This document shows positions 4,972 through 62,280 of a stretch of DNA of 64,000 nucleotides, piece after piece (the first letter of the stretch is position 1; each line of letters opens with the position of its first letter). The notes beneath the pieces are model-generated. The model saw nothing but the letters and a program-made list of their open reading frames with translations. It had not been told where the DNA came from and ran no database searches. Both the position numbers and the translations under genes were made by a program. This stretch comes from Acidobacteriota bacterium (GTDB lineage Bacteria > Acidobacteriota > Thermoanaerobaculia > UBA5066). The stretch spans positions 1 to 64,000 of the forward strand of contig JAKOVQ010000013.1 in assembly GCA_029781975.1 (NCBI GenBank), read 5' to 3'.

Positions 4972-5763
4972 GTGTCAGAGCCGTCCCCGCGAAGGACCGG
5001 GCCGCTCCTCCGCGGCGTCCGCCACCTCCACTTCCTCCTGGCGGCCGTCGTCGGCGCCCTCACCTTCCTCGTCCTCTCGGGGGTCGGGCTCCTCTACGTG
5101 GCCCTCTCGCCCACGCGCGCTAACGCGGCGGTCCTCCTCGCGCGGACGTTCCACGCGGTCATGACGTTCGTCGTCGGCTGGCGCGTCCGGGTCGAGGGGC
5201 GCGAGGTCCTCGCCGCGGGCGGGCCCGTCGTCTACATGGTCCGGCACCATTCGAACCTCGACATCGTCCTCTACGGGGGGATCTACCCGCGGCGGACCGT
5301 CGTCGTCGGGAAGAAGGAGGTCGGGAAGATCCCGGTCTTCGGGTGGTTCTTCCGGGCGACGGGAAACGTCCTCCTCGACCGGGGCGACCTCTCGCGCGCC
5401 ATCGACTCGATCCGCGCGGCGGCGGAGCGGGTCCGGCGGGAGGGGATCTCCGTCTGGGTCTTCCCCGAGGGGCACCGGAACGACGGCACGTCCCTCCTCC
5501 CCTTCAAGAAGGGGCCGTTCCACCTCGCCGTCGCCGCGCAGGTCCCGATCGTCCCGATCGTCAGCGACCGGCTCCGGGGCGTCCTCGACGGCCATCGGCT
5601 CCTCGTGCGGCCCGGCCGGATCCGCATCCGGGTCCTCCCGGCGATCGCCACGGAAGGGTTCGGTCCCGACGACGTCCCGAACCTGATGGAGTCCGTCCGC
5701 GCGCGGATGCAGGGCGCTCAGGACGCCCTGACGGCGGACGAAGGAGCTCCGGTCTCCGCCTGA
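4972..5763 (+). CDS. plsC: 1-acyl-sn-glycerol-3-phosphate acyltransferase (PlsC family)
   Basis: Transfers an acyl group to lysophosphatidic acid to make phosphatidic acid, at the inner membrane. In the 263 residues there is a hydrophobic N-terminal anchor at about 20-45, the catalytic HX4D motif HHSNLD (H92, D97), and the acceptor-phosphate motif FPEGHRN (164-170). Start GTG 4972 is preceded by GATAAT (4960-4965) 6 nt upstream with no Shine-Dalgarno site. The next gene is a fatty-acid desaturase, so both probably serve membrane lipid composition. Paralogues acylating other lysolipids cannot be excluded from sequence. Confidence 0.9.
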   Translation: MSEPSPRRTGPLLRGVRHLHFLLAAVVGALTFLVLSGVGLLYVALSPTRANAAVLLARTFHAVMTFVVGWRVRVEGREVLAAGGPVVYMVRHHSNLDIVLYGGIYPRRTVVVGKKEVGKIPVFGWFFRATGNVLLDRGDLSRAIDSIRAAAERVRREGISVWVFPEGHRNDGTSLLPFKKGPFHLAVAAQVPIVPIVSDRLRGVLDGHRLLVRPGRIRIRVLPAIATEGFGPDDVPNLMESVRARMQGAQDALTADEGAPVSA

Positions 5764-5868
5764 AGGAGGGCCCGGGCCGTCCGGGGAGTACGATGGTTCC
5801 TCACCGGGGCTGTCTACCCTGTCCTCGCCAGGCCGGGGCTCACATTCCCACCTCTCAAGGGAGCCCGT

Positions 5869-7104
5869 ATGAGCCAGACCCGCCCCGCGCCCCGCCCGCG
5901 CATCCGCCTCTCCGCCGCCCTCGGCTTCGCCCTCGTCCACCTGGCCGCCCTCGGCGTCCTCGCCGTCGGCTTCTCGTGGCAGGGAGCGGCCCTCTGCGTC
6001 GGGTCGTACTACCTCCGGATGTTCGCGATCACCGCGGGCTTCCACCGCTACTTCGCCCACCGGACCTACCGGATGAGCAGGTTCTGGCAGTTCGTCATGG
6101 CCTTCCTCGGCCAGACGGCGGCCCAGAAGGGGGTCCTCTGGTGGGCGGCGCACCATCGCCACCACCACCGCTTCTCGGACCAGCCCGAGGACATCCACAG
6201 CCCCGTCCAGCGCGGCTTCTGGTGGAGCCACATGGGGTGGATCCTCGCCGACGACTACGCCGAGAGCCGCCTCTACCAGATCCGCGATTTCGCGAAGCTC
6301 CCCGAGCTGGCGTGGCTGGACCGGAACCAGTTCCTCGCCCCGATCCTCTACGGCTTCCTCCTCTGGCTCCTCTTCTCCTGGACCGGCCTCTTCTACGGCT
6401 TCTTCCTCTCGACGGTCCTCCTCTGGCACGGGACGTTCGCCATCAACAGCGTCATGCACGTCTTCGGCAAGCGGGTCTTCGAGACGCGCGACACCAGCCG
6501 GAACAGCTTCCTGATGGCGGTCCTCACGATGGGCGAGGGGTGGCACAACAACCACCACCACTACCCCGGCTCCGCGCCGCAGGGGTTCCTCTGGTGGCAG
6601 GTGGACCTCAGCTACTACCTCCTCCTGGCCGGCGAGAGGCTCGGGCTGGTCCGCGACCTGAGGCGGGTCCCCGAGAAGGTCCGGGCCGTCGCGCGCGAGC
6701 GGGGCGCGTGGCACTTCTCGCGCCGTCCGTTCGAGCGGGCGCTCGCGTCGTTCGACGCGGCCCAGGCGGGCGTCGCCGCCCGGCTGGACGCGCTGGGCGC
6801 CGCGTGGGCGGACCGCCGCGACACCGCGCGCCTCTCGGCCGCCCTCGCGCTCGAGGAGCTCGAGTCCACCCGCGCGCGGACGGCCGAGCGGCTCGAGCGG
6901 CTCCAGGCCGACTACGCCGCCGCGCGCGCCGCGCTCGCCGAGGAGACGCGCCGCCGGAGGCAGCGCGCCGCCGCCCTCGCCGAGATCCGTCTCGAGGAGC
7001 TCCGGGCCGAGATCCAGCGGACCGCGCAGGCCCTGACCGAGACGCTCGAGCGGCTCGTGGCGGCCGCCGAGGGACGCCCCGTCCCGCCGGGCGCCCCGGC
7101 CTGA
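5869..7104 (+). CDS. Acyl-lipid/acyl-CoA fatty-acid desaturase with C-terminal coiled coil
   Basis: Membrane di-iron desaturase, probably delta-9 type, inserting a double bond in acyl chains. The three histidine boxes are complete: HRYFAH (59-64), HHRHHH (95-100) and HNNHHH (226-231). Hydrophobic segments lie at about 15-50, 70-90 and 155-195. The catalytic core ends near residue 270. After it come about 140 extra residues rich in Ala, Arg, Glu and Leu (275-400) with the heptad character of a long coiled coil, which desaturases normally lack. Start ATG 5869 follows AAGGGAG. It sits downstream of the acyltransferase, 105 bp away. Confidence 0.92.
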   Translation: MSQTRPAPRPRIRLSAALGFALVHLAALGVLAVGFSWQGAALCVGSYYLRMFAITAGFHRYFAHRTYRMSRFWQFVMAFLGQTAAQKGVLWWAAHHRHHHRFSDQPEDIHSPVQRGFWWSHMGWILADDYAESRLYQIRDFAKLPELAWLDRNQFLAPILYGFLLWLLFSWTGLFYGFFLSTVLLWHGTFAINSVMHVFGKRVFETRDTSRNSFLMAVLTMGEGWHNNHHHYPGSAPQGFLWWQVDLSYYLLLAGERLGLVRDLRRVPEKVRAVARERGAWHFSRRPFERALASFDAAQAGVAARLDALGAAWADRRDTARLSAALALEELESTRARTAERLERLQADYAAARAALAEETRRRRQRAAALAEIRLEELRAEIQRTAQALTETLERLVAAAEGRPVPPGAPA

Positions 7105-7159
7105 CCGCGCCCCCGGGCGCGGGGCGGGCGCGGCCGGGCGCGCGCTAACATCCCGGGCC

Positions 7160-8491
7160 ATGGACAGCGCGCTCTCCACGCTCTACCGCGAGCACGTCGA
7201 CGCCCGCTCCGCCGCCGCGGCGAGGGCCCTCTCGGCGACGGGGTTCGACCGGCTCCTCGTCCACTCGGGGAAGCCGTTCACCTACTTCGCCGACGACAAC
7301 GACGCCCCGTTCCGGTCGACGCCCCACTTCGCCCACTGGACGCCCCTGGAGGGGCCGGGGCACCTCCTCGACGTCGTCCCCGGACGGAGGCCGCGCGTCT
7401 TCCGCCTCGTCCCGCGCGACTTCTGGTACGAGCCGCCGCGCCCGGCCCCCTCGTTCGTCACCGACCTCTTCGACGTGACCGACGTCGCGACCCCGGAGGA
7501 GGCGTGGAAGGCGGCTGCCGCCTCCCACGGGGGACGGACGGCGTTCCTCGGCGAGGCGGCGGAGGAGGCCGAGGCGAACGGGATCCCTCGGGACGCGGTC
7601 AACCCGCCCCGCCTCGTCGCCCGCCTCGACTGGGACCGCGCCTGCAAGACGCCGTACGAGGTGGCGTGCCTCCTCGAGGCGAACGCCGTCGCCTCGCGCG
7701 GCTTCGCCGCCGCGCAGACGACCTTCCTCGCGGGGGGGACGGAGCTGGAGGCCCACCACGCCTTCCTCGCCGCCACGGGCGTCATGGAGGAGGCCCTCCC
7801 CTACCCCACCATCATCGGCTTCGACGAGCGCTCCGCCACGCTCCACTACCACGGCAAGAGGGGGCACGAGGCGGCGCCGGGCCGCGGGATGCTCGTCGAC
7901 GCCGGCGTCTCGGTGAGGGGGTACGGCTGCGACATCACCCGGACCTTCACGAGCCCGCGGACCGACCCGACCTTCCGCGCCCTCGTCGTCGGGATGGACG
8001 CCCTCCAGCGCCGCCTCGCGGACGAGCTCCGCCCGGAGCGCCCCTACCTCGAGGTCCACCTCGTCGCGCACCGGCTCATCGGCGAGCTCCTGCGCGAGAC
8101 CGGGATCCTGAAGGTCGGCGTCGACGAGGCGCTCGCGAGCGGGCTGACCCGCCCCTTCTTCCCGCACGGGCTCGGCCATTTCCTCGGCATCCAGGTCCAC
8201 GACGTCGGCGGGCGCCAGGAGCGCCCGGACGGGGGGACGAAGGCCCCGCCGGCCGAGCACCCGTTCCTCCGGACCACGCGGACGCTCGAGGAGGGGATGG
8301 TCATCACGAACGAGCCGGGCCTCTACTTCATCCCGATGCTCCTCGAGCCGGTCCGCGAGGGGGCGGGACGGGACGCGATCGACTGGAGGCTCGTCGACCG
8401 GCTGACGCCGTTCGGCGGGATCCGGATCGAGGACGACGTCGTCGTCGGGCGGGAGGGGAACCAGAACCTCACCCGCCCGCACGTGCCGTGA
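7160..8491 (+). CDS. pepQ: Xaa-Pro dipeptidase PepQ (M24B)
   Basis: Cytoplasmic two-metal peptidase that cleaves dipeptides with C-terminal proline. At 443 residues it has the same length as E. coli PepQ. All five metal ligands of the pita-bread fold are present: D247 (VDAGVS), D258 (CDITRT), H340 (HGLGHFLG), E385 (NEPGLY) and E424 (IRIEDD). The N-terminal domain (1-160) is the PepQ-type substrate-gating domain. The start is ATG 7160. TAACAT at 7146-7151 lies 8 nt upstream without a ribosome site. The same-strand downstream gene is aguA, 43 bp away. Confidence 0.95.
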   Translation: MDSALSTLYREHVDARSAAAARALSATGFDRLLVHSGKPFTYFADDNDAPFRSTPHFAHWTPLEGPGHLLDVVPGRRPRVFRLVPRDFWYEPPRPAPSFVTDLFDVTDVATPEEAWKAAAASHGGRTAFLGEAAEEAEANGIPRDAVNPPRLVARLDWDRACKTPYEVACLLEANAVASRGFAAAQTTFLAGGTELEAHHAFLAATGVMEEALPYPTIIGFDERSATLHYHGKRGHEAAPGRGMLVDAGVSVRGYGCDITRTFTSPRTDPTFRALVVGMDALQRRLADELRPERPYLEVHLVAHRLIGELLRETGILKVGVDEALASGLTRPFFPHGLGHFLGIQVHDVGGRQERPDGGTKAPPAEHPFLRTTRTLEEGMVITNEPGLYFIPMLLEPVREGAGRDAIDWRLVDRLTPFGGIRIEDDVVVGREGNQNLTRPHVP

Positions 8492-15225: not shown

Positions 15226-16629
15226 TCAAAATAGGGAGGGGGGGACGATCGGCGCGCCCGTCTCCTGGAGCTCCTGGGCCTTCAGGAACCGGTCGAGGGG
15301 GCGGTCGAGGCTCACGGTCATCGTGCTGAAGCGGACGGTCACGTCGAAGTTCGCGAGGAAGGAGCTCCCCAGGATGCCGTCCTCGAGCCCCTCCGCGTCC
15401 TCCTTCACCACGATGTCCGCGAACTGGACCATGTACTTCTCGACGCCCACCGTCACGTTCGAGAGCTTTCCCCAGGAGACGCGGCTCTTGCCGATCCCCT
15501 CGAGCGTCATCGGGTAGCTCGCCTCGCTCCCCTTCGTCGGGGCCCGCATCAGCCCCGACCGGGTGACGATGGTCGGCTCCGACCCGGTGTCGAGGAGGAA
15601 GAGGAACCAGGGGGTCTGGTTCAGGGAGGCCCGGACCATCGGCTTGAGGCGGCGGAAGAAGAGGTTCTGGTTCGGGCTCCCCCGCCGCAGCCCCTTCTCG
15701 AGGCGGACCCCCAGGATCCGCCTCTCCTGGTAGCGGAGGCTCCAGTCGAACTCCTTCAGGAGGTCCGCCCCCAGGACGCCGTCGAACCGGACCTGACCCG
15801 ACGCCTCGCTCCCGAACGTGAGGGCGCCGTCCGGGAGGATCCCGAACGGGACGTGCGTCAGGATCGCGGTCCCGATCCGGACGTTCTTCGCCCAGCCGAA
15901 GCCCATCTCGATCTCGACCCGGTGGAGGCCGTACGCGCCCGCCTTCGCGCCGGGGACCACCTCGATCCCGAGGCGCCTGGCGGCGCTCTCGGTCAGGAGC
16001 GAGATCGACGCCCCGGTGTCGAAGACCATCTGCTCGCTCTCGACGTCGTTGACCTTCACGGTCACGCGCGGCACGCGCGGCTTGGAGAAGGCCATCAGCT
16101 CGTTGATCCGCGTCCCGGCGACCGCGCCGCCGTAGATCGGCTCGGGCCCGGCCGACCGGAGGAACGCGAGCCAGCCGTCGGGGAGGATGAGGCCGTGCGA
16201 GCGGGCGACCTCGACCCACCGGGCCGACTCGGAGAAGTCGTCGAGCCAGTAGTGGGCCTGCGCGAGGAGCCACGCCACCTGCCCGCGCTCCGAGAACCGC
16301 CCCTCCTCGGCGAAGGCCCGCTCCAGGAGAGGGACGGCCGCCCGGGCATCTCCCTTCTCGAGAAGCGCCTGCCCGAGGACCTTGAGCGTCCGCGTCCGCT
16401 CGACCCCCTTGTCCGCCGTGCTGGCGAGGAAGGCGGCCACCTCGGGGACGTAGCCCAGCTTGAGCCGCTCCTCGAGGTTGAACGAGTTGACCCACCCCTG
16501 GGGAAGCGGCTTCATCAGGAGGTGGGAGCGGACGGTCACGTCGCGGGAGAAGGTGCAGGCGCCTCCGACGAAGGCGGCGAGGGCCGCCGCGGCGGCCGCC
16601 CTTCGGAACGCCTTCACGCGCCCTCTCAC
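15226..16629 (-). CDS. Retropepsin-like aspartic protease lipoprotein with two catalytic DTG motifs
   Basis: Predicted aspartyl protease of 467 residues. The N-terminus has a lipoprotein-like signal ending at Cys25 (VGGAC), then an alpha-helical TPR-like segment (about 75-160). Two retropepsin-type domains follow: the first has VFDTGAS (D204) and GVLGADLL (284-291), the second LLDTGSE (D347) and GILGSSFL (418-425). Classical retropepsins dimerise, one DTG per chain; here both could come from one polypeptide. GTG 16629 overlaps the upstream phosphatase stop (GTGA). Substrate unknown; the periplasmic side of the outer or inner membrane is the likely location. Confidence 0.82.
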   Translation of the reverse strand: MRGRVKAFRRAAAAAALAAFVGGACTFSRDVTVRSHLLMKPLPQGWVNSFNLEERLKLGYVPEVAAFLASTADKGVERTRTLKVLGQALLEKGDARAAVPLLERAFAEEGRFSERGQVAWLLAQAHYWLDDFSESARWVEVARSHGLILPDGWLAFLRSAGPEPIYGGAVAGTRINELMAFSKPRVPRVTVKVNDVESEQMVFDTGASISLLTESAARRLGIEVVPGAKAGAYGLHRVEIEMGFGWAKNVRIGTAILTHVPFGILPDGALTFGSEASGQVRFDGVLGADLLKEFDWSLRYQERRILGVRLEKGLRRGSPNQNLFFRRLKPMVRASLNQTPWFLFLLDTGSEPTIVTRSGLMRAPTKGSEASYPMTLEGIGKSRVSWGKLSNVTVGVEKYMVQFADIVVKEDAEGLEDGILGSSFLANFDVTVRFSTMTVSLDRPLDRFLKAQELQETGAPIVPPSLF

Positions 16630-18287
16630 ACCGGCCTGGCGACGAGGACCGTCTGGTCGTCGTACTGGGCGACGCCGCGGGTGAACTCGGCGACCGACAG
16701 GAAGATCCGGTCCTTCATCTCCGTCGGCTCCTCGCTCCGGCAGCCGCGCAGGACGGCCGTCAGGCGGTCCATCCCGAACTCCTCCTCCCGGGCGTCGATC
16801 GCCTCCGTGATCCCGTCGGAGTAGAGGAGGAGGACGTCGTCGGCCCCCAGCGTGGCCACGGCCTCGTCGTAGGTCGCCGTCGGGAACATGCCGATCGGGA
16901 GCCCCGTGCTCGGCAGGAGGTGCACCTCGGAGCCCGCCAGCCAGATCGCGGGGTTGTGGCCGGCGTTGACGTACCGCACCGAGCGGCTGGGCGGGTCGTA
17001 GACGGCGAGGAAGAGGGTGACGAACTTCCGCGCGGCGCTGAACTGGGTGAGGTGGGTGTTGATCCGCCGGACCAGCCTCGGGAGGTCCGAGGCGCCGGCC
17101 TCGATCAGGAGGTGGATGCAGGCGTGGACGGTGGAGACGAGGAGGGCCGCCGGGATCCCCTTCCCCGAGACGTCGGCCACGCAGAACGCCACGCGGCCGT
17201 CGGGGAGAGGGTGGACGTCGAAGAAGTCGCCGCCGACCTGGCGCGTCGGACGGTTCCCCGCCGCGATCCTGAGGCCCTCCAGGGGAGGGAGCGAGGCCGG
17301 GAGGATGGTGCGCTGGATCGACGCGGCGATCTCCACCTCGCGCTCCATCTTCTCCTTCTCCACCGCCTCCCGGTGGAGCCGCGCGTTCTCGAGCGCGATC
17401 GCCGCCTGGTTGGCGAAGAGCGAGAGGATCCGCGCGTCGGAAGGGCCGAAGTCGTCGATGCCGCCGGCCCGGTTCTCCTTGTCGGCCACGACGAGGAGAC
17501 CCAGGGGCGAGCCGTCCGAGACGATCGGGACGGCCAGGAGCTTCTCGGCGGGGGCCTGCGCGAGGCTCTCCGGGCGGGCGCTCCGCTGGTTGCAGATCAG
17601 CGGCGTCCCGAGCGCCTCCGGCGGGAGGAGCTCGGAGACCAGCGGCGGTCCGAAGCTCTTGACCAGGAGCGAGGCGTCCTCCGCGTCCTGCCGGACGAGG
17701 AGGGTCCCGGTCCTGGCGTTCAGCAGGGAGATCGACTTGAGGAGGATGTCGTCGGCGAGGGACTCGAGGTCGAGGGTCCCCGCGATCGACAGGCCGACGT
17801 CGTAGAGGCTCTCCAGCTCCCAGACGCGGTACCTCAGCTCGAAGTCCGCCTCCCTCACCTTCTCCGACATCCGGACCCAGGCCAGGATGGAGGCCGCGTG
17901 CGACGTGACCGATGCGAACGCGGCCGGGTCGACCAGCGGCTCGGGCAGCAGGACGACGGCGAGGAGCTCCTCGCCCGCGGTCAGCGGGATGACGCTGGCG
18001 CGTTCCGTCCCCTCGCCGAGGAGGGCCTCGGCCACCCGGGCCCTCACCTCGGGCTGCGGCATCCGGGCCCGCCGCAGGAGCGCGGTCGCCTGCGCCACCG
18101 CTGGTCCGGAGAGGGTCAGGCCCCGGGAGGCGGGACGGAGCCGGCCCGCGGGGTCGATCGCCGCTCCGCGCGACGCGCCGGCGGCGAGGAGGAGGGCGTC
18201 GAGGACCTGCTCGAGGAGGCCCGGGCCGGCCGCGAACGGCTCGATCGATGCGAGGTGCCGGTGGGCACCCGGGCCGTCCGCGACCAT
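16626..18287 (-). CDS. GAF-SpoIIE (RsbU-like) PP2C serine phosphatase
   Basis: Cytoplasmic phosphatase of 553 residues that probably dephosphorylates the STAS antagonist encoded just upstream. There is an N-terminal GAF-like region (about 20-140), a second, clearer GAF domain (about 160-305), a linker coiled coil (303-325) and a SpoIIE/PP2C domain (about 330-553). The metal-binding Asp residues are in VGGDFFDV (351-358) and ADVSGKGIPAAL (371-382), with further motifs NAGHNPA and LLYSDGITEA. It is the fourth gene of the partner-switching operon starting at 19340. Its GAF domains presumably set phosphatase activity in response to an unidentified ligand. Confidence 0.92.
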   Translation of the reverse strand: MVADGPGAHRHLASIEPFAAGPGLLEQVLDALLLAAGASRGAAIDPAGRLRPASRGLTLSGPAVAQATALLRRARMPQPEVRARVAEALLGEGTERASVIPLTAGEELLAVVLLPEPLVDPAAFASVTSHAASILAWVRMSEKVREADFELRYRVWELESLYDVGLSIAGTLDLESLADDILLKSISLLNARTGTLLVRQDAEDASLLVKSFGPPLVSELLPPEALGTPLICNQRSARPESLAQAPAEKLLAVPIVSDGSPLGLLVVADKENRAGGIDDFGPSDARILSLFANQAAIALENARLHREAVEKEKMEREVEIAASIQRTILPASLPPLEGLRIAAGNRPTRQVGGDFFDVHPLPDGRVAFCVADVSGKGIPAALLVSTVHACIHLLIEAGASDLPRLVRRINTHLTQFSAARKFVTLFLAVYDPPSRSVRYVNAGHNPAIWLAGSEVHLLPSTGLPIGMFPTATYDEAVATLGADDVLLLYSDGITEAIDAREEEFGMDRLTAVLRGCRSEEPTEMKDRIFLSVAEFTRGVAQYDDQTVLVARPV

Positions 18288-18297
18288 GCGGCCCTCC

Positions 18298-18660
18298 CTA
18301 CTCCGCTTCTCCCCGCAGCCAGGAGAGCGCCGGGTCGGGCGCCGGGAAGATCCGTGCGTACTGTGCCAGGCCCATGATCTGGAAGGTCTTCTCGATCGTC
18401 GGCGTGAGGTGGCAGAAGGCGAGGCGCCCGCCCTGGTCGAGGACCTTCTCGAGGATCTCGATCAGGATCGAGATCCCGATCGAGTTCACGATCTTGGTCT
18501 TCTCGAGGTCGAGGAGGAGCCGGACGGACCCCTCGTCGAGGAGCGCGTAGGCGCGCCGGGCGATCTCCTCGCCTCCCGTGTTGTTGATGTAGCCGTCCGT
18601 CCGGAGGATCGCCACGCTGGCGTCGGGCCTCTCCACCGTCACCTTGAGTGTCTCGCTCAT
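18298..18660 (-). CDS. STAS-domain anti-sigma-factor antagonist (SpoIIAA/RsbV-like)
   Basis: Partner-switching protein, 120 residues from ATG 18660 (a GTG 6 nt upstream is possible; the ATG has AAGGGTGG before it). The STAS core is recognisable. The phosphoacceptor region reads KTKIVNSIGISILIEI, where the Ser after Asn (Ser60 from this start) aligns with SpoIIAA Ser58, though the usual D-S-x-G is N-S-I-G here. It should be phosphorylated by the RsbW-like kinase just upstream and dephosphorylated by the SpoIIE phosphatase just downstream. No sigma factor gene is nearby, so the final target is open. Confidence 0.88.
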   Translation of the reverse strand: MSETLKVTVERPDASVAILRTDGYINNTGGEEIARRAYALLDEGSVRLLLDLEKTKIVNSIGISILIEILEKVLDQGGRLAFCHLTPTIEKTFQIMGLAQYARIFPAPDPALSWLRGEAE

Positions 18661-18669
18661 CGCCACCCT

Positions 18670-19130: not shown

Positions 19131-19340
19131 TCAGAGGGTCAGGAGCGCACGAAAGACCGTGAAAACGATCTCCGGCATGTTACCCGACGCGGAGAGGAGA
19201 GCGAAGGCTGCCGCCTCTGCGGCGAGAAGGGCGAGGAGCCGGACGGGAAGGTTGGCGACGTGCAGCCCGGGGGTGGCGACCGGGGCTCCCGCCAGCTCTC
19301 CTTCCTCGACATCCCGGATGGCGCGGATCGTCTCGTCCAT
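19131..19340 (-). CDS. Small single-pass membrane protein heading the partner-switching operon
   Basis: Unrecognised protein of 69 residues. ATG 19340 is chosen because GGGAGGAG lies 3 nt before it; a TTG at 19358 would add six residues. The N-terminal 30 residues are acidic and soluble, followed by a hydrophobic Ala/Leu-rich helix (about 34-52) and a short second hydrophobic stretch (about 57-69). It lies 20 bp before the RsbW-like gene and directly behind the sigma-54-type promoter at 19365-19379. A role as membrane tether or sensor of the kinase is inference from position only. Confidence 0.62.
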   Translation of the reverse strand: MDETIRAIRDVEEGELAGAPVATPGLHVANLPVRLLALLAAEAAAFALLSASGNMPEIVFTVFRALLTL

Positions 19341-19364
19341 CGGCTCCTCCCGCGACAAGTTGAC

Positions 19365-19379
19365 GCAAGAGGCGCGCCA
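19365..19379 (-). promoter_or_regulatory. Sigma-54-type -24/-12 promoter of the partner-switching operon
   Basis: Reading the minus strand, TGGCGCGCCTCTTGC matches the -24 GG and -12 GC doublets of the consensus TGGCACG-N4-TTGC with exact spacing. Only the A of the -24 box is replaced by G. The predicted start site near 19353 leaves a 13-nt leader that just contains the GGGAGGAG ribosome site before ATG 19340. An enhancer-binding-protein gene ends about 190 bp upstream. Confidence 0.6.
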
Positions 19380-19380
19380 G

Positions 19381-19566
19381 AACGACCCGTCCTCGACCGA
19401 TTAAGCTAACCCTTACCCACAGAGTGATTTGCAGTGTTGGCGACGGCTGAGGTCGGTGCAGGGAAAATGTGGCAAAACGGCACGACACCCTTGACCTAAC
19501 GCACAAGCAAGAGTTAAATCATTTTCACACATCATTTACGCATATGTGACAATTCTTCTCTATGGG
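19381..19566. promoter_or_regulatory. AT-rich intergenic island upstream of the partner-switching operon
   Basis: Stretch of markedly low GC (especially 19500-19566) in a 70% GC background and without an open frame. An 11-nt inverted repeat, AATGTGGCAAA at 19466-19476 and TTTGCCACATT at 19571-19581, brackets it; the right arm overlaps the 3' end of the enhancer-binding-protein gene. The position suits enhancer sites for the sigma-54 promoter at 19365-19379. I saw no clear sigma-70 promoter. Confidence 0.5.
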
Positions 19567-21054
19567 CTAATTTGCCACATTCTTCCGGTAGAGGGTGCGC
19601 CTGTTGATCCCCAGGATCCTTGCTGCTCTGCTCTTGTTCCCGCCCACCGAGGCGAGGACCCGGAGGATCTGCTCGCGCTCCAGCGAGGCGAGGTCCTGGC
19701 GGAGGTCTCCTCCCGTCTCTGAGGGGCCGGCGCCCCGGAGCTGGAGGTCGGCGGCCTCCACGACGCCCCCGGCGACCAGGGCCGTCGCCCCCTCGAGGAG
19801 GTTCTCGAGCTCGCGGACGTTGCCCGGGAACGGGTAGTCGAGGAGCTTGGCCACCGCGTCCCGGCTGAGGCTGAGGGGAGGGCGCCCCTCGCGCGCCGCG
19901 ATGCGCGAGAGGAAGTGGCCCGCCAGCCGGGGGATGTCCTCGCGGCGCTCGCGGAGGGGGGGAAGGACGATCTCGACGACGCGGATCCGGTAGTAGAGGT
20001 CCTCGCGGAACGACCTCTCCCTGATCCGCTCGTGGAGGTCGGCGTTGGTGGCCGAGACGACGCGGACGTCGACCGGGATCCTCTGCCGGCCGCCCACCCT
20101 CTCGATCTCCCTCTCCTGAAGGACCCTCAGGAGCTTGGCCTGGATCGCCAGGGGGGCGTCGGCGATCTCGTCGAGGAAGATGGTCCCGCCGTGCGCCAGC
20201 TCGAACTTCCCCGGGCGGGCGTCGACTCCGGTCGCGACGCCCCGTTCGATGCCGAAGAGCTCCGACTCGAGGAGGCTTTCCGGGACGGCGGCGCAGTTCA
20301 GGGCGAGGAAGGGCGCCGACCGCCGCGGCGAGCCCGCGTGGAGGAGCTTCGCGACGAGCTCCTTGCCCGTCCCGCTCTCCCCGCGGATCAGGACCCCTAC
20401 CCGGGAGGAGGCGGCGCGGACGACCATCTCCTTGACCCGCCGCATGGGGGGCGAGTCCCCGACCAGGATCTCGTCGACCTTGAGGGTCCCCTTGAGGGCC
20501 TGGTTCTCCTCCCGGAGGCGGTCGACGTCGGCCTCGAGGGCGCGGACGTGCCTCAGGGCGTCCAGGGCCGGCGCGGCGAGGGCTGCCAGGGAGCCGAGGA
20601 AGCGCCGGTCCTCCTCGTCGAACGTCGCCAGACCTCCACGCGCTTCCCGGTCGAGGACGAGGAGGACGCCGAGGACGCGGTCCCTGGCAACGAGCGCCGC
20701 CCCGGCGACGCTGTCCGCGGTCGAGGAGAGGACGCTCTCGGGGGAGCGGGAGATCGGTGTCCGGGCCCGGCAGACGTCGAGCACGAACGGGTCCGACGCC
20801 ACGTCGAGGGCGGAAGGCGGGCTCGCGAAGCCAACGGTGGCCATGGCCCCCGGCGCGTCGGGCTCCTCGAACCGGACGGCGAGGCCTCGGGCGGCATCCA
20901 GGACGCCGACCGCCCGCGCCAGGGCGTCTTCCAGGATCTCCTGCTCGCCGCGGGAGCCGTTGAGGGTCCGGCTCAGGTCGTAGAGCGCCTCGAGGCGCAG
21001 GACCTTCTTCTTCAGGCCGAACGACTCGGCGGAGCGGGGGTCGACGAGGGCCAC
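19567..21054 (-). CDS. GAF-AAA+-Fis enhancer-binding protein with altered GAFTGA loop
   Basis: Transcriptional activator of the NtrC class without a receiver domain, 495 residues. GAF domain about 20-170, a short coiled coil (170-190), AAA+ domain about 195-430 with Walker A GESGTGKE (225-232), Walker B GTIFLDE (290-296), and FREDLYYRIRV containing the arginine region; C-terminal Fis-type helix-turn-helix about 455-495 (NKSRAARILGINRRTLYRK). The loop that normally reads GAFTGA and contacts sigma-54 reads GVATGV (272-277). That change would usually impair sigma-54 contact, yet a sigma-54-type promoter lies just downstream. The upstream TPR gene is 13 bp away. Confidence 0.88.
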   Translation of the reverse strand: MALVDPRSAESFGLKKKVLRLEALYDLSRTLNGSRGEQEILEDALARAVGVLDAARGLAVRFEEPDAPGAMATVGFASPPSALDVASDPFVLDVCRARTPISRSPESVLSSTADSVAGAALVARDRVLGVLLVLDREARGGLATFDEEDRRFLGSLAALAAPALDALRHVRALEADVDRLREENQALKGTLKVDEILVGDSPPMRRVKEMVVRAASSRVGVLIRGESGTGKELVAKLLHAGSPRRSAPFLALNCAAVPESLLESELFGIERGVATGVDARPGKFELAHGGTIFLDEIADAPLAIQAKLLRVLQEREIERVGGRQRIPVDVRVVSATNADLHERIRERSFREDLYYRIRVVEIVLPPLRERREDIPRLAGHFLSRIAAREGRPPLSLSRDAVAKLLDYPFPGNVRELENLLEGATALVAGGVVEAADLQLRGAGPSETGGDLRQDLASLEREQILRVLASVGGNKSRAARILGINRRTLYRKNVAN

Positions 21055-21067
21055 CCGACCTCCCGGG

Positions 21068-22471
21068 TCAGTTCCGAGCGACGGAGGCCCCGTCCCCCTC
21101 CCGCCCGACCGAGGCGAGGAGGTCGACGGCGGGCTGGAACCGCGGGTTGACCTTCAGGATCGGCGCGAGGACCTGACGCTCCTCGTCGAACCTGCCGAGC
21201 TTCGAAAGGACCTTCGCCAGCGCGATCCGATCGCGGTTCGGGTAGTAGCCCTGCTCCATCCCGCGCTTCGCCCGTGCGTCGATGACCGCGCGGAGGATCT
21301 TCGCCGCGGATTCGAGGTCACCCGTCTGCCAGTCGATGACGGCCCGGACGAGGGTCCGCGCCTCCCCCGAGTCGTCCCCCTTGCCGCCCGGCGGCGCGGG
21401 CTCCTCGGGGGCCGCGGCCAGCTCGGTCTCGGCCTCCGGGACGCGGCCGACGACGGCCAGGAGGAGGGCCCGGTTGAGGGCCACCGCGGTGCTCAGCTTC
21501 TTCCGCAGCTCGGGGTCGACGGCCGGGAGGGTGGCGACGAGCCGATCGAACTCCGCCACCGCCTCCCCGGGCTCGCCCCCGTCCGCCAGCGCCAGCCCGG
21601 CCGAGAAGGCGAACTGGATCCGGTCGCCGAGCGCCTCGGTCATCTGCGCGGCGCGGGCGAACTGCTCCGAGGCCTCCCTGTAGCGCCCCTGGGAGTAGAA
21701 GGTCGTCCCCAGGTGCCCCACCGACGGGAAGAAGTCGGGCTTGATCTCGAGCGCCTTCTTCAGGCTCGCCTCGGCCTCCCCGTACCGCCCGCGGCTGGTG
21801 TAGAGCTCCCCGAGCGAGTCGTAGGGATTGGCCTGGTCCGGGGCGAGGTAGCGATAGCGCTTGAAGTTGTCCTCGGCCTTGACGGCGTCGCCCCGCTGCA
21901 TCCAGAAGTAGCCCAGCATGTTGTAGGCCGAAGCGAAGTTCGGGTCGATGCGGAGGAGCCGCTCGTACTCGCGGACCGCCTCGTCCTGCTTCCCCTGCCA
22001 GAGGAGCATCGAGCCGCGGCGGTGGATCCCCTCGGGATCCTGCGGGAACCGCTTGACGTAGTCGTCGAGGAGGGCCGCGACCCGAGCGCGGTCGTGGGCC
22101 ACCAGGTCGGCCTTGTAGATCTCGGCCAGCGCCTTCTCCCGATCCGTCAGCCCGTCGAGCCTCTGCGTGGCGCAGGTGACGAGGGAGCGCGCCCGCTCCG
22201 GATCCCTCCCGGAGAGGAGGGCCGCGAGCCGGAGCGAGGCCATGACGAAGTGGGGGTCCTGGGCGAGGGCCGCGGCGTAGGCCGAGATCGCCTCCCGCGG
22301 GTACATCTTCCGCTCGTTCTCGACCCCGAGCCGGTAGAGCCGGTAGGCCTCGGCCGAGGAGGTCGTCACGTCGCGCCCGGTGCGGAGGAGGAAGGCGGCC
22401 GCGGTCCCCGCGGCGACGAGACCGACGAGGAGCGCGACGTAGACGACCTTCAGGGCGGCGTTCTTCCTCAA
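21068..22471 (-). CDS. Membrane-anchored TPR protein
   Basis: 467 residues: an N-terminal transmembrane anchor (about 8-28), then repeated TPR motifs over most of the chain, for example AVREYERLLRIDPNFASAYN, AEDNFKRYRYLAPDQANPYD and AEASLKKALEIKPDFFPSVG (about 165-265), with a further set near 400-450. The TPR part should be periplasmic or cytoplasmic depending on anchor topology; the basic N-terminus suggests a periplasmic tail. No catalytic motif. It lies between the PDZ-SpoIIE phosphatase (42 bp) and the enhancer-binding protein (13 bp), so it may be an adaptor in the same signalling route. Confidence 0.82.
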   Translation of the reverse strand: MRKNAALKVVYVALLVGLVAAGTAAAFLLRTGRDVTTSSAEAYRLYRLGVENERKMYPREAISAYAAALAQDPHFVMASLRLAALLSGRDPERARSLVTCATQRLDGLTDREKALAEIYKADLVAHDRARVAALLDDYVKRFPQDPEGIHRRGSMLLWQGKQDEAVREYERLLRIDPNFASAYNMLGYFWMQRGDAVKAEDNFKRYRYLAPDQANPYDSLGELYTSRGRYGEAEASLKKALEIKPDFFPSVGHLGTTFYSQGRYREASEQFARAAQMTEALGDRIQFAFSAGLALADGGEPGEAVAEFDRLVATLPAVDPELRKKLSTAVALNRALLLAVVGRVPEAETELAAAPEEPAPPGGKGDDSGEARTLVRAVIDWQTGDLESAAKILRAVIDARAKRGMEQGYYPNRDRIALAKVLSKLGRFDEERQVLAPILKVNPRFQPAVDLLASVGREGDGASVARN

Positions 22472-22513: not shown

Positions 22514-25099
22514 CTATACGCGGCGCGGGGGCGCCGGGTTCTCCCCGACGACGCGCATCAGGACGAAGGTCTGGTCGTCCGACTGCTCGGCTCCGTAGGT
22601 GAACTGCCTGATGTCCTCCAGGAGCTCGTCCGCGAGCTCTCCCAGGGGGGCTTCCGCGTGCCTCACGAGGGAAGCCTTGAGGCGCTCGTCCCCGAAGAAG
22701 TCCTGCTCCACCGACATCGCCTCGTTGAGGCCGTCGGTGTAGAAGAGGAGGAGGTCGCCCCTCCGGAGGAAGAGCGTCCTCGAATCGTACGAGGTGTCCT
22801 TCAGCGCGCCGAGCGGCAGCCGGTTCTCGGGCGCCGGGACCTCGGAGGCCTCCGCGGCCCCGGCCCGGACCAGGAGAGGGGTCGGCTGCCCTCCCATCGA
22901 GTAATGAAGGGTCAGCGCGTCGGGGTCGAGGAGGAAGTAGCCGAGGGAGACGAACATCCGGCGCTTGATCTCGTAGATGCGCCGGTTCGACTCCCGGAAG
23001 ACCGTGGCCGGGTCGGGATCGGCCATCGCCTTGGCGTAGACGATCTCCTTGGCGGCGACCATCAGGAGCGACGCGGGGATCGACTTGCCCGAGACGTCCC
23101 CGACGACGAGGGCCAGGCGGCCGGTCCCGCTTCCGTCCACGTGGAGGAAGTCGTAGAAGTCGCCCCCCACGACCTTCGCCGGCCGGCTGACGCCGAGGAG
23201 CTCGATGCCCGGGATCCGGGGGAGCTCCCGGGGAAAGAGGCTGACCTGGATGTCCCGGGCGATCTCGAGGTCGCGTTCCACCTCGGCCCGGCGCGTCAGC
23301 TGCTCGTGGAGCGCCGCTGCCTCGAGCCCGAGCGCCCCCTGGTTTGCGATCGTCGTCAGGTGGTCGAGGTCCTCCCGGCTGAGCTCCGCCTCCGACAGCT
23401 TCCCCCCCACGGCCAGGAGGCCCAAGAGGCGGCCCCGTGTCGCGACCGGGACCAGGAGCTTCGTCCCTCGCTGCCGCTGGGTGGCGAGGAACTCGCGGGA
23501 GACGGCGTCGAGCGTCCAGACGTCGAGGTCCGCGAGGGGGACCGGCTGGCCGCGCTCGATGACGAGCCGCGCGAGGCTCGCCCCGACCGGGAGCGCGACC
23601 GGCGAGCCGCCCCCCCGGGAGGGGACGAGGGAGCCGTCCTCGGACCGCGGGGTCAGGAGGTCGACGCGGGAGAGGCGGAGGAGCTCCGACGTCCGAGACG
23701 TCAGGAGGGCCTCCAGCTTGGGCCTCTCCAGCTGAGAGACGAGGTCCCGGCTCATGTCGAGGAGCGCCTTCTGGAAGTCGCCCCGGTCGCGGAAGAAGAG
23801 CCTGTCGACCGTCCCCTGCATCCGGCGCCGAAGCGGGTCGAACAGGAGGACGACGAGGAGGCCGAAGGAGAGCGCGATCAGGGGCGAGGAGAGGGGCGCC
23901 CGGGCCGAGACGACGGCGTTCCCCAGGACGACGGCCAGGGCGTAGAGCCCGGTCACCACGGCCGTCAGGAGGCCGTAGACGATGGAGCGCGAGACGATGA
24001 CGCGGACCTCGAACAGCCGGTACCTGACGATGGCGTACGCGAACGTGAGCGGGACGAGACCCATCGGGACGACGCCCCAGGCGAGGTACCTCTCGTTCCG
24101 GAAGAGCGCCGGGAAGTAGACCGCGAAGAGGACGAACGGCACGGTCCCCCCCAGCGTCCCGAGGAGGAGCGCGAGGACCGGACGCCTCACGTTTCGGTCC
24201 TCCGCCGTCCACCAGGAGTGCGCCAGGGCGAGGAGCCCCAGGACGAGGTAGTCGGCCAGGAGGATCCAGTTCGCGCGCGGCGCGCCGTAGACGAGGCCGG
24301 TGCGGTCCTTCGAGGCGGTGAGCGCCGTCATCTGGATGACGTAGAAGACCGGCGGGAGGGTGTAGAGGAGGACGAAGAGGAGGGGCGAACCGTTCAGGAA
24401 CCTCTGCAGGAGGACGAGCGGCCGCGCCGGCGGCTCCTCGCCGGGCCGCGGGTCGGCGAAGCGGAAGACCTTCGGGGCCGGGAAGAGGAGGAAGAAGTGG
24501 AGGAAGACGGCGGGGAGGAGGAAGAGGGCGAGAGCCCCCGCCACCTGGACGAAGTAGTCGATCCAGTAGTAGCTCGAGGGCCGGAGCCGGCAGACGAAGA
24601 GGAGCATGAAGAGGACGCAGAGGAGGAAGAAGACCTCCACCGCCGCGTCGCCCGACCGCCGCGAGTAGACGAACGCCCCCAGCGCGAGGAAGAGGAAGCC
24701 GAGGAGGGCGTAGGTGAGGTAGGCGAACGTCCCGAGCCGCGTGGGGCTCAGGACGACGTCCGTCTCGAAGACGTCGTCGCCGCGACGGACGAGGTAGCGG
24801 ACCGGCTCCCCCACGTTGTGCTGGCGGAGCTCCGCGGGGGCCTCCACCGGCGAGTTGAGCATCCGGTGGCCGATCCCGAGGATCGTGTCCCCCACCCGGA
24901 GCCCGGCCCGGTCGGCGGGCCCTCCGGGGACGAGGTCGCGGACCGCGATCCCGCCCGAGGAGTACGGATCGGGGACGACCCCGTCATACGGCCGCGGGAT
25001 GAACATGTCCACGACGGACATCCCCGCGATCAGGACCCCCAGGATCCCGACGGCGAGGATCAGCCCCCGGCGCGCCTTCGGTGAGAGCTCCCGCGTCAC
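22514..25099 (-). CDS. PDZ-multispan membrane-GAF-SpoIIE phosphatase
   Basis: Membrane-bound PP2C-type phosphatase, 861 residues from GTG 25099, chosen because GAGGAG precedes it by 5 nt; the frame is open upstream but collides with tmk. A first TM (10-32) is followed by a periplasmic PDZ domain (about 48-118, GGPADRAGLRVGDTILGI). About eight more hydrophobic segments run from 125 to 425, with the conserved RYRLFEV (359-365). A GAF domain (about 445-600), a coiled linker and the SpoIIE domain follow, with GGDFYD (645-650), GDVSGKS and FYTDGLNEA. The phosphatase target may be the STAS protein encoded 4 kb downstream. The same front end is found on the histidine kinase at 59530. Confidence 0.88.
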   Translation of the reverse strand: MTRELSPKARRGLILAVGILGVLIAGMSVVDMFIPRPYDGVVPDPYSSGGIAVRDLVPGGPADRAGLRVGDTILGIGHRMLNSPVEAPAELRQHNVGEPVRYLVRRGDDVFETDVVLSPTRLGTFAYLTYALLGFLFLALGAFVYSRRSGDAAVEVFFLLCVLFMLLFVCRLRPSSYYWIDYFVQVAGALALFLLPAVFLHFFLLFPAPKVFRFADPRPGEEPPARPLVLLQRFLNGSPLLFVLLYTLPPVFYVIQMTALTASKDRTGLVYGAPRANWILLADYLVLGLLALAHSWWTAEDRNVRRPVLALLLGTLGGTVPFVLFAVYFPALFRNERYLAWGVVPMGLVPLTFAYAIVRYRLFEVRVIVSRSIVYGLLTAVVTGLYALAVVLGNAVVSARAPLSSPLIALSFGLLVVLLFDPLRRRMQGTVDRLFFRDRGDFQKALLDMSRDLVSQLERPKLEALLTSRTSELLRLSRVDLLTPRSEDGSLVPSRGGGSPVALPVGASLARLVIERGQPVPLADLDVWTLDAVSREFLATQRQRGTKLLVPVATRGRLLGLLAVGGKLSEAELSREDLDHLTTIANQGALGLEAAALHEQLTRRAEVERDLEIARDIQVSLFPRELPRIPGIELLGVSRPAKVVGGDFYDFLHVDGSGTGRLALVVGDVSGKSIPASLLMVAAKEIVYAKAMADPDPATVFRESNRRIYEIKRRMFVSLGYFLLDPDALTLHYSMGGQPTPLLVRAGAAEASEVPAPENRLPLGALKDTSYDSRTLFLRRGDLLLFYTDGLNEAMSVEQDFFGDERLKASLVRHAEAPLGELADELLEDIRQFTYGAEQSDDQTFVLMRVVGENPAPPRRV

Positions 25100-25192
25100 C
25101 CGCTCCTCGTCGGGGCCGACCGGACCCGGCAGCCCCCTGATCCTCGCATTCTCCAGTATACGGGCGGCCGCCCCGGCGAGGTCCGGACGTGC

Positions 25193-25840
25193 ATGCGAGA
25201 ATCGCGCCCCGTGTCGCGGCGCGGACTCTTCCTGACGTTCGAAGGGATCGAGGGCTCGGGCAAGACGACCCAGCTCCGCCGCCTCGCGCGGACGCTCCGC
25301 CGCCTCGGCCTGCCCCTCCTCGTCACGCGCCAGCCCGGCGGGACGGCCGTCGGCCGGCGGCTCCGCCGCCTCCTCCTCGCCCCGGGCGCGCCGATCGACC
25401 CCCGGACGGAGCTCCTCCTGATGTTCGCGGACAGGAGGCAGCACCTGACCGAGACGATCGAGCCGGCGCTCGCCGCCGGGGTCCACGTCCTGTGCGATCG
25501 CTACACCGACGCCTCCCGGGCCTACCAGGGGGCGGGACGCCGGCTCGGCGTCGCGACGGTGGACCTCCTCCACGACACGTTCTGCAGGCGCGCCCCCGAC
25601 CGGACCTACCTCTTCGACTGCCCCGTCCCGACCGCCCTGGCGCGGATCGGCAGGCGGAAGGAGGGGCCGGACCGGATCGAGAGCGAGCGGGCCGCGTTCC
25701 ACCGCCGCGTCCGGCGGGCCTACCTCGACGGGGCGGCCGCCGAGCCGGAGCGGATCCTCGTCGTCGACGCCGCGCGGCCCGAGCGCGAGGTCGCCGAGGA
25801 GGTGCTGGCCGACGCGAGGCGCCTCCTGGCCCTCTCATGA
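25193..25840 (+). CDS. tmk: Thymidylate kinase
   Basis: Phosphorylates dTMP to dTDP. In 215 residues: P-loop FEGIEGSGKTTQ (16-27), the DR motif CDRYTDASRAYQGAGR with substrate contacts, and a LID region RRKEGPDRIE. The start is ATG 25193 (GTG 25211 is an alternative). It overlaps holB by ATGA at its 3' end, a pairing seen in many bacteria. It is divergent from the PDZ-SpoIIE phosphatase with 93 bp between the starts. Confidence 0.94.
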   Translation: MRESRPVSRRGLFLTFEGIEGSGKTTQLRRLARTLRRLGLPLLVTRQPGGTAVGRRLRRLLLAPGAPIDPRTELLLMFADRRQHLTETIEPALAAGVHVLCDRYTDASRAYQGAGRRLGVATVDLLHDTFCRRAPDRTYLFDCPVPTALARIGRRKEGPDRIESERAAFHRRVRRAYLDGAAAEPERILVVDAARPEREVAEEVLADARRLLALS

Positions 25841-59499: not shown

Positions 59500-59514
59500 T
59501 GGCACCTGCTTTGC
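59500..59514 (+). promoter_or_regulatory. Sigma-54-type -24/-12 promoter of the HK-NtrC operon
   Basis: TGGCACCTGCTTTGC matches TGGCACG-N4-TTGC at 14 of the 15 positions counted with N free; GG (59501-59502) and GC (59513-59514) have the exact spacing. The predicted start site near 59526 is only about 4 nt before ATG 59530, so the kinase mRNA would be essentially leaderless. Confidence 0.7.
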
Positions 59515-59529
59515 CTGTCCGAAAACGGA

Positions 59530-62280
59530 ATGCGTGCGGCGTCGCAGCGAACGGCGGCGATCGTGAGGAGAGTTCTGCTGGTCCTCCTCGTGGCGCTGCT
59601 CGTCCCTCTGGGGGCCAGCGCCGTCCGGAAATTCCGGACGGCAGGAAAGTCCGGACTCCTCCTCACCTCGGAGCCGAGCGGCTGGCGGGTCGTGTCGGAG
59701 GGAGTCTCCTCCGGGAGGACGGGCCTCCGGCCGGGTGACCTCCTCCTCATGGTCGACGGCCGGGAGGCGCGTGAGCTGCGCGATCCGGTCGGGATCCTCG
59801 AGGAGATGCCCCGCGACGTGACCCTCCTCCGGGACGGCGCCCTCGTCCGCGTCCGGACCGACACGGCCCCCGTTCCGCTCGACGCCCGGTACGTCGTCCT
59901 GCTGGCGGTGGGCGCGGCGTTCCTGGCCGCGGCCGGCGCCGCCCTCCGCGGCTCGACCCTCGAGCCTGAGCCGGGCCCCTTCCTCCTCTTCGCGGGCTTC
60001 TCCCTCTGCGCCGCGACCGTCCTCGTCGTGACCCCGGTGCCGCCGTTCGACCGCCTGTACCGCGCCTCCGTCCTCCTCGAGGACGCCGCGCGCGCCTTCC
60101 TGCCTGCCTTCCTCCTCGCGTTCGTCCTCCGCTTCCCGCGGCGGGCGCGCCGAGCTCCGCTCGCCCCGTTGTTCGTCGCGGCGGCCGGGCTCGCCGCCGC
60201 GTCGTTCGCGACCTACCTGATCCCCCCTCCCCCGGGCGTCGACGCCACCGCGCGCATCGTCCGGCTCGACGGCGTCCAGGAGATCTGGCTCGCCGCCGGC
60301 ATCCTCGCAGCGGGGGCGCGCGTCGTGCTCCTCGCACGCCGCCGGACGGACCTCGTCGCGGAGAAGCAGTGCCGCTTCCTCCTCGCCGGCACCGTGGGGG
60401 GCCTCTTCCCGGTGGCTCTCCTCGACCTCGTCCCGCGCTTCTTCGGCGGCCACGTCCCGGTCCTGTCGACGCTCTCCATCCTCCCGCTCCTCCTCGTGCC
60501 GGTCGCCTTCACAGCGGCCCTGACGCGGTACCGGCTCTGGGACGTCGAGATCCTCGCCCGCGAGACGGGCGCCCTGCTCGGCGCCGGGTTCCTCGCCGCG
60601 GCGATCTTCGCCGGCGCGCAGCTCCTCGACCTCGGCGCCCTCGCCCCCGGCGTCCCCTACGGCCGCGGGCTCGTCGAGACCGCGGCCGGCCTCGTCCTGG
60701 CGCTGACCTTCCTTCCGGTGCGCCGGGGCCTTTCCGGCGCCCTGGCGCGTTGGCAGTACGGCGACGGCTGGGCCGAGCGCGAGAGCCTCCTCGCGCTCGT
60801 GCGCGAGCTCTCCGAGCCGCGACGCCTCGCGGAGGTCGGACCGCTCCTCGTCGACCGCGTCTCGCGGGGCCTCGCCGTCCCGCGCGCCGCCCTCCTCCTT
60901 TCGACCGGCGACGGAGCGGTGGACGGGCAGGCGGTCGACGGCGGGGGCCCGATCGCGCTCGACGAGCTCCCGGCGGGCGCCGGCCGGGGGCCGGTCCGTC
61001 TCTCCCGCCTCGCGTTCGCGTCCGAGCCGACCGCCGGCGTGGCGCGCCTCAGGCAGGCCGGATTCCGGACCCTGGCGCCGCTCGCCCTCTCCGGGCGTCT
61101 CCTCGGCCTCCTGGCGATCGCGGACAGGCACGGGCGCGAGCCCCTGTCGGTGGAGGACCTCGCGCTCCTCCAGACCGTCCTCGCCTCGGCGGCCCTCGCG
61201 ATCGACCATGCGCGGCTCTACGAGCAGCTCGAGGAGCGCGCGACGGAGTACCGCCGGCTCAAGGAGTTTCACGAGGACGTCGTCGCCGGGTCGGCCGCGG
61301 CGATCGCGGCGACGGACGACGGGGGCGTCCTGACCACGGTGAACCCCGCCTTCGAGAAGCTCTTCGGGAACGGGACTCCTCTCGTCGGGAGGAGGGTCGA
61401 GGAGGTCCTGCCCGCCGCGGTCCGCTCGGCCTCGCCGGCCGGGAGGGTCGAGACGGAGGTGGGCGAGGCTCGCCGCGTCCTCGACGTCGCGGTCTCGCCG
61501 TTCCCGGGAGCGCCCGAAGGATCTCCCGCGCGGGTCTTCGTCGTCTCCGACGCCACCGAGCTGACCCGCCTGGAGAGGACGGTCGCCGAGCGGGACCGGC
61601 TCGAGGCGCTGAGCCACCTCTCGGCCGGGATGGCGCACGAGGTGAATACGCCCCTGACGGGGGTGGCGAGCTTCGCCCGGCTCCTCCTCGACGAGACCCC
61701 GGCCGACGACCCCCGCCGGCCCATGGTGGAGAAGATCGAGCAGCAGGCGTTCCGCGCCGCGAGGCTCGTCGGGAGCCTCCTCGACCTGGCGCGCGGCCGG
61801 CCCCGCCAGATGACGCCGCTCGACCCGGCCGAGCTCGTCCGCGAGGCGTGCCGCGCCCTGTCGGACGAGATCGACGGACGCGGCGTCGCCCTCGAGCTGA
61901 GGATCCCGCCCGGCCTTCCCGTGATCCGCGGGCACGGCGACGCGCTCGTGCAGGTCCTCGTGAACCTCCTGAAGAACGCGGTGGAGGCGGTGTCGGCGCC
62001 CGGGAGCGGGCGCGCGGGCCCCGGACACGTCCGCGTGGCGGCGGTGCAGGCGGCCGACACGGTCGACCTGAGCGTCGAGGACGACGGGCCCGGGCTCTCC
62101 GCGGAGGAGGCCGAGAAGGTCTTCCGCCCCTTCACGTCCACGAAGACCTCCCAGGGGGGCGTCGGCCTGGGGCTCGCGATCGCGAGGGATATCATCCGCG
62201 CGCATGGAGGGACCCTCTCCGTCGATTCCGCCCCCGGCGGCGGGGCACGATTCACGGTGAGGCTGCCGGTCGGCGCATGA
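59530..62280 (+). CDS. PDZ-multispan membrane-GAF-PAS sensor histidine kinase
   Basis: 916 residues. A TM (13-31), a periplasmic PDZ-like domain (about 45-112, SGRTGLRPGDLLLMVDG), multiple TM helices (about 120-390) with RYRLWDV at 333-339, a GAF domain (about 425-565), a PAS domain (about 585-690), then HisKA with the phosphoacceptor H703 in SAGMAHEVNTPLTG. The HATPase domain has NLLKNAVEAV (N-box), EDDGPGLS (G1) and GGVGLGLAIARDI (G2). It partners the NtrC-type regulator that it overlaps (ATGA). The front end is the same kind as on the SpoIIE phosphatase at 22514-25099. GTG 59563 is an alternative start. Confidence 0.92.
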   Translation: MRAASQRTAAIVRRVLLVLLVALLVPLGASAVRKFRTAGKSGLLLTSEPSGWRVVSEGVSSGRTGLRPGDLLLMVDGREARELRDPVGILEEMPRDVTLLRDGALVRVRTDTAPVPLDARYVVLLAVGAAFLAAAGAALRGSTLEPEPGPFLLFAGFSLCAATVLVVTPVPPFDRLYRASVLLEDAARAFLPAFLLAFVLRFPRRARRAPLAPLFVAAAGLAAASFATYLIPPPPGVDATARIVRLDGVQEIWLAAGILAAGARVVLLARRRTDLVAEKQCRFLLAGTVGGLFPVALLDLVPRFFGGHVPVLSTLSILPLLLVPVAFTAALTRYRLWDVEILARETGALLGAGFLAAAIFAGAQLLDLGALAPGVPYGRGLVETAAGLVLALTFLPVRRGLSGALARWQYGDGWAERESLLALVRELSEPRRLAEVGPLLVDRVSRGLAVPRAALLLSTGDGAVDGQAVDGGGPIALDELPAGAGRGPVRLSRLAFASEPTAGVARLRQAGFRTLAPLALSGRLLGLLAIADRHGREPLSVEDLALLQTVLASAALAIDHARLYEQLEERATEYRRLKEFHEDVVAGSAAAIAATDDGGVLTTVNPAFEKLFGNGTPLVGRRVEEVLPAAVRSASPAGRVETEVGEARRVLDVAVSPFPGAPEGSPARVFVVSDATELTRLERTVAERDRLEALSHLSAGMAHEVNTPLTGVASFARLLLDETPADDPRRPMVEKIEQQAFRAARLVGSLLDLARGRPRQMTPLDPAELVREACRALSDEIDGRGVALELRIPPGLPVIRGHGDALVQVLVNLLKNAVEAVSAPGSGRAGPGHVRVAAVQAADTVDLSVEDDGPGLSAEEAEKVFRPFTSTKTSQGGVGLGLAIARDIIRAHGGTLSVDSAPGGGARFTVRLPVGA

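Follow-up and report, generated by a model that had tools for sequence, protein, structure and literature searches.

A conserved candidate sigma-54 promoter, adjoining the gene of a likely GVATGV-loop activator, precedes a serine-kinase partner-switching operon in Acidobacteriota

Sigma-54 and partner switching are already known to meet in the syp locus of Vibrio fischeri, where the sigma-54-dependent regulator SypG drives genes that include those for the SypE kinase/phosphatase and the STAS protein SypA (PMC4517449, PMC3843225). The Acidobacteriota locus described here resembles syp in the predicted sigma-54-dependent activation of STAS and serine kinase/phosphatase genes. The preliminary description of this locus noted that partner-switching modules are usually run by SigB/SigF-like or housekeeping factors and that control by sigma-54 would join two regulatory layers; sigma-54 control of the operon is upheld below, but the union itself has a precedent because SypG drives the syp locus. 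The two arrangements differ in several respects. SypG is a two-component response regulator, whereas the bEBP here is a GAF-containing one-component protein, and SypE carries kinase and phosphatase domains in one polypeptide, whereas the RsbW-like and SpoIIE-like proteins here are separate. Unlike in syp, a small membrane protein is encoded first, and no polysaccharide genes are seen adjoining.

Other described systems share parts of this locus. The kinase, STAS and PP2C families, together with key kinase and STAS residues, are those of the Bacillus RsbU/RsbV/RsbW-SigB and SpoIIE/SpoIIAA/SpoIIAB-SigF systems; unlike in Bacillus, the proteins here score under the NCBIfam equivalog cut-offs, and no SigB/SigF-type sigma factor was found. 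The GAF - AAA+ - DNA-binding layout of the bEBP is that of NorR and NifA, whose sigma-54 contact loop is GAFTGA and not GVATGV as here. The GVATGV loop is shared with DVUA0100 of Desulfovibrio vulgaris, whose predicted targets are sigma-54 promoters of type III secretion genes adjoining its own gene (PMC4641369); the evidence for DVUA0100 is predictive, its link is to type III secretion and its N-terminal region is unassigned, whereas the protein here begins with a GAF domain. A literature search, partial in its coverage, for Acidobacteriota, sigma-54 and RsbW together found no paper. What appears to be new is the gene arrangement and how deeply it is conserved in a class of Acidobacteriota, together with the link to a GVATGV bEBP and the leading small membrane protein. 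The features of the window (the whole 64,000-nt stretch of DNA analysed) are as follows.

15226-16629, minus strand: retropepsin-like aspartyl protease, its gene overlapping the phosphatase gene by 4 nt; syntenic in several relatives
16626-18287, minus strand: GAF-SpoIIE (PP2C) phosphatase, from domain matches
18298-18666, minus strand: STAS antagonist (RsbV/SpoIIAA-like), retaining the serine (NSIG) that corresponds to the phosphorylation position of SpoIIAA
18670-19110, minus strand: RsbW-like serine kinase (HATPase_c_2), retaining the N-box residues (E and N) and DxGxG
19131-19340, minus strand: small hydrophobic membrane protein (69 aa), encoded immediately after the promoter; most relatives compared have a small hydrophobic ORF at this place
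19365-19379, minus strand: predicted -24/-12 sigma-54 promoter TGGC-GCGCCTC-TTGC, kept in 62/63 distinct loci
19469-19483, unstranded: predicted enhancer dyad 1 (-104), GTGCCGTTTTGCCAC, top-scoring match (12.3) of a matrix from which the window was left out
19546-19560, unstranded: predicted enhancer dyad 2 (-181), GAGAAGAATTGTCAC, with one strong half-site (score 8.6); relatives have a dyad at about -180
19564-19578, unstranded: predicted enhancer dyad 3 (-199), GTGGCAAATTAGCCC, overlapping the bEBP stop codon (score 11.4)
19567-21054, minus strand: bEBP with GAF, sigma-54 AAA+ (GVATGV loop) and HTH_8 domains, the likely activator, from domain matches and loop alignment
21068-22471, minus strand: TPR protein, encoded upstream of the bEBP, with synteny retained in the nearest families
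22514-25234, minus strand: phosphatase of PDZ - membrane - GAF - SpoIIE layout, its start codon uncertain; this second PP2C lies upstream of the bEBP

Read on the minus strand, positions 19379-19365 are TGGCGCGCCTCTTGC, a TGGC-N7-TTGC element with the GG-N10-GC doublets in place. The element lies 24 nt before the ATG at 19340 of the 69-aa membrane ORF, so that the exactly spaced element of the preliminary description stands and its gap of 25 nt does not. Transcription would start near 19353, judging by the -24/-12 position, and the resulting leader of 13 nt would contain the ribosome-binding site GGGAGGAG. By itself the GG-N10-GC motif is no better than chance in the window or the genome: a looser scan of the 64-kb window gives 92 matches against 89.5 expected, and the strict pattern, with 96 matches genome-wide against 160 for a reversed control, is rarer than that control. 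The significance of the promoter therefore rests on conservation.

Orthologs of RsbW were gathered from 101 genomes and a named collection, in which the named close relatives are Acidobacteriota, several of them labelled Thermoanaerobaculia. Upstream of RsbW and before a small ORF, the strict TGGC-N7-TTGC pattern occurs at 35 of 37 distinct loci, TGGT taking the place of TGGC in the remaining two. When many genera and families are taken together, more distant families included, a site stands at the matching place in 62 of 63 distinct orthologous loci, as compared with a mean of 3.7 (maximum 9) after shuffling and one on the opposite strand; this count leaves out a match that sits at the RsbW start in one locus (L208), the raw count being 63. 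The check proposed at the outset, conservation of GG-N10-GC in related genomes, thus comes out clearly in favour of the site. The element columns themselves are rich in information, in part because the search pattern imposes it. The columns that flank and separate the two elements carry 0.0-0.6 bits, mostly <0.35, across the aligned distinct loci, and the site is therefore not kept by general conservation of the region. The distance from the site to the start codon of the small ORF is 20-37 nt (45 loci), which leaves room for the +1 position and a ribosome-binding site. By sequence comparison, the predicted site stands before this signalling operon across an entire class of Acidobacteriota.

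The site also goes with a particular neighbour. Where the bEBP gene lies directly upstream, the strict site is found in 32 of 33 loci, and the remaining one (L073) retains GG-N10-GC as TGGCACGATCTCTGC; where RsbW loci have no such gene, mostly in other phyla, it is found in none of 43. In three loci of one genus (L032, L034 and L036) the site is present, the bEBP gene being about 2.6 kb off or beyond the contig. Of 20 regions from more distant families, 19 combine bEBP gene and site, and L208 has neither at that place. The putative -24/-12 element is thus retained with this bEBP and missing without it, a kind of support that is evolutionary, not biochemical. A functionless chance match, for which one may cite the unremarkable frequency of the motif in window and genome, has next to no probability against this co-occurrence and a conservation so far above the shuffles.

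The bEBP gene directly upstream, and the loop of its product, were absent from the preliminary description. The protein has a PF00158 AAA+ domain with Walker A and B intact and a DNA-binding HTH, and falls well short of the NifA and NorR equivalog cut-offs. Its sigma-54 contact loop is GVATGV instead of GAFTGA, one residue shorter than in GAFTGA proteins; this is neither GAFTGA nor one of the variants known to be accepted, and in this respect the protein is bEBP-like by context only. GVATGV is present in the window and in every ortholog with a readable loop (in one ortholog a run of N covers the loop). Roughly 30 canonical bEBPs are encoded in the genome, many with GAFTGA, and among those with a readable loop the protein described here is the sole one without GxFTGA or GxYTGA. 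In PspF, the phenylalanine of the loop is replaceable only by tyrosine (PMC2941729). The type VI secretion activators Sfa2 and Sfa3, considered as sharers of the variant loop, were ruled out, as the papers describe GAFTGA for them.

The missing aromatic residue invites the reading that the sigma-54 site is real but is activated by one of the roughly 30 canonical bEBPs, the GVATGV protein being a repressor or a sigma-70 regulator. The abundance of GAFTGA proteins in the genome would allow this, and loop-less bEBPs such as the NtrC and VspR proteins can act at sigma-70 promoters (PMC10274813). Yet the -24/-12 element is retained with the GVATGV protein and missing without it, the Walker motifs of that protein are intact, the candidate binding sites lie just past its own gene, DVUA0100 with the same loop is likewise predicted for sigma-54 promoters, and no further strongly conserved column is seen near the -24/-12 site in the column information across loci. 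We therefore regard activation by a canonical bEBP as improbable. The association suggests instead that the GVATGV variant serves sigma-54 promoters, and the co-occurrence seen here is independent support of the same kind as the DVUA0100 prediction.

The stretch from the bEBP gene to the promoter contains copies of a dyad, GNGRCA-N3-TGYCNC, at conserved spacing, which we take as the predicted enhancer. At least one dyad with no more than one mismatch is found in 30 of 36 regions, as against 2.5 in shuffles. The commonest layout in relatives has three copies near -215, -197 and -115, and the family of the window has its dyads near -180 and -100, at times with a third near -200. The three dyads of the window have two mismatches each and are more degenerate than in most relatives. 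With the matrix built without the window, they are nonetheless its three best sites and stand at the expected positions; their summed score is reached by none of 2000 shuffles, and the score of the weakest is equalled by only four positions in 64 kb. At -104, -181 and -199 they fall at the distance of about 80-200 bp upstream at which activator sites are sought. In L036, a large opposite-strand gene (5073-7334, isocitrate lyase/malate synthase-like) separates the bEBP gene from the promoter. A dyad at about -117 remains there beside the promoter.

Downstream of the promoter, the domain matches agree with the operon content first given: a small membrane protein, an RsbW-like kinase, a STAS protein and a SpoIIE phosphatase. 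The tight spacing suggests that these genes form one transcript, of which the aspartyl protease gene is a probable further member. Of 46 loci compared, 45 have a small hydrophobic ORF after the site. Across the wider class, the product of this ORF ends in a conserved segment, MLxSxRRxxAxPxxPxxxxxxxGTVxSFxWLLxxDxIHPxxVYLLQLYLxF, with the last phenylalanine invariant. No Pfam family scores above cut-off for the small protein, and the wider-class profile stays above E 0.1 for most members of the window's own family, so that kinship between the groups rests on position and C-terminal likeness. A low-confidence model (pLDDT 63) suggests a helical hairpin. On the other side of the bEBP gene, the second PP2C (22514-25234) has a weak PrsK sensor kinase match over its membrane-GAF part, and its synteny beside the bEBP is limited to the window's nearest families.

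The leading position of this small ORF, together with its conserved C-terminal segment, raises the question of whether the promoter is chiefly for the small membrane protein or a small RNA, with the partner-switch genes expressed mainly from other promoters; RsbW-STAS loci of other phyla, which lack the site, are in keeping with this. Such a division sits poorly with the short gap between the small ORF and RsbW, 20 nt in the window and 7-47 nt in most relatives, and with the STAS and, as a rule, PP2C genes close behind RsbW in relatives, and we consider it quite improbable. A promoter for the partner-switch operon as a whole is the preferred reading.

The genome encodes one RpoN (PF04552, E 1.1e-64, one match). 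At about 96% completeness, it yields RpoD and one RpoD-like factor as the sole sigma-70 proteins with region 3, the latter falling far short of the cut-offs of the SigB/F/G and FliA models, and about 19 further region-2 matches that are presumably ECF factors; a SigB/SigF-type sigma factor was not found. The RsbW-like protein has the HATPase_c_2 domain of RsbW/SpoIIAB kinases, with the N-box residues (E and N) and DxGxG in place, and scores 55.5 bits against the RsbW equivalog cut-off of 145 and 50.7 bits against the SpoIIAB cut-off of 135. With no SigB/SigF-type factor found in the genome, the term "anti-sigma" is to be read as a domain label: the partner-switch domains named in the preliminary description are there, and the anti-sigma output it attached to them is not borne out. 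It is conceivable, though rather unlikely, that the switch feeds back on the GVATGV bEBP, via its GAF domain or the small membrane protein, and not on a sigma-70-type factor, which would give a closed sigma-54/partner-switch loop with GVATGV engaging sigma-54 without the aromatic residue.

In sum, sigma-54 control of the operon, as originally proposed, is strongly supported by the presence of rpoN, the conserved -24/-12 element, the adjoining bEBP gene and the conserved enhancer array, all read from sequence. Very probably this is a genuine sigma-54 promoter, with the adjoining bEBP as its activator and the partner-switch operon as its target. The dyad array lies just past the bEBP gene; some 100 bp after its last dyad comes the -24/-12 element, and the operon begins 24 nt further on. 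We infer that sigma-54 polymerase transcribes the operon and that the bEBP activates it in the following way. The GAF domain would receive a signal, whereupon the protein would bind the dyads, oligomerise and spend ATP in remodelling sigma-54 polymerase at 19379-19365. Transcription from near 19353 would then lead to the joint production of the small membrane protein and the three partner-switch proteins (RsbW-like, STAS and SpoIIE). How much of the partner-switch module is made would depend on sigma-54, and the state of the module on RsbW, which would phosphorylate the STAS protein, and on the PP2C, which would remove the phosphate.

Other candidate sigma-54 sites were seen in the same genome. 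In the window, positions 59500-59514 of the plus strand (TGGCACCTGCTTTGC) form a second candidate promoter, 15 nt before the ATG at 59530, which is a short gap for such a promoter; the gene that follows encodes a membrane sensor histidine kinase (59530-62280) and the next an NtrC-type regulator with GSFTGA. On contig C15 of the genome (about 473-525 kb, L225-L228), at least about a dozen TGGC-N7-TTGC sites occur in 52 kb, compared with 96 in 5.4 Mb. Some of them lie 26-30 nt before ORFs, one of which encodes a protein with two BON-like repeats. The cluster is likely a sigma-54 regulon, perhaps of envelope stress genes.

One recent survey of sigma-54 regulons retained GAFTGA proteins only (PMC12316311), and GVATGV-type activators would therefore be missed by such a filter. 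Throughout an entire class of bacteria that has been little studied, the locus described here would place a serine-kinase partner switch under sigma-54. In addition, a GVATGV bEBP maintained alongside a predicted sigma-54 promoter offers natural evidence that bears on what is required of the GAFTGA loop.
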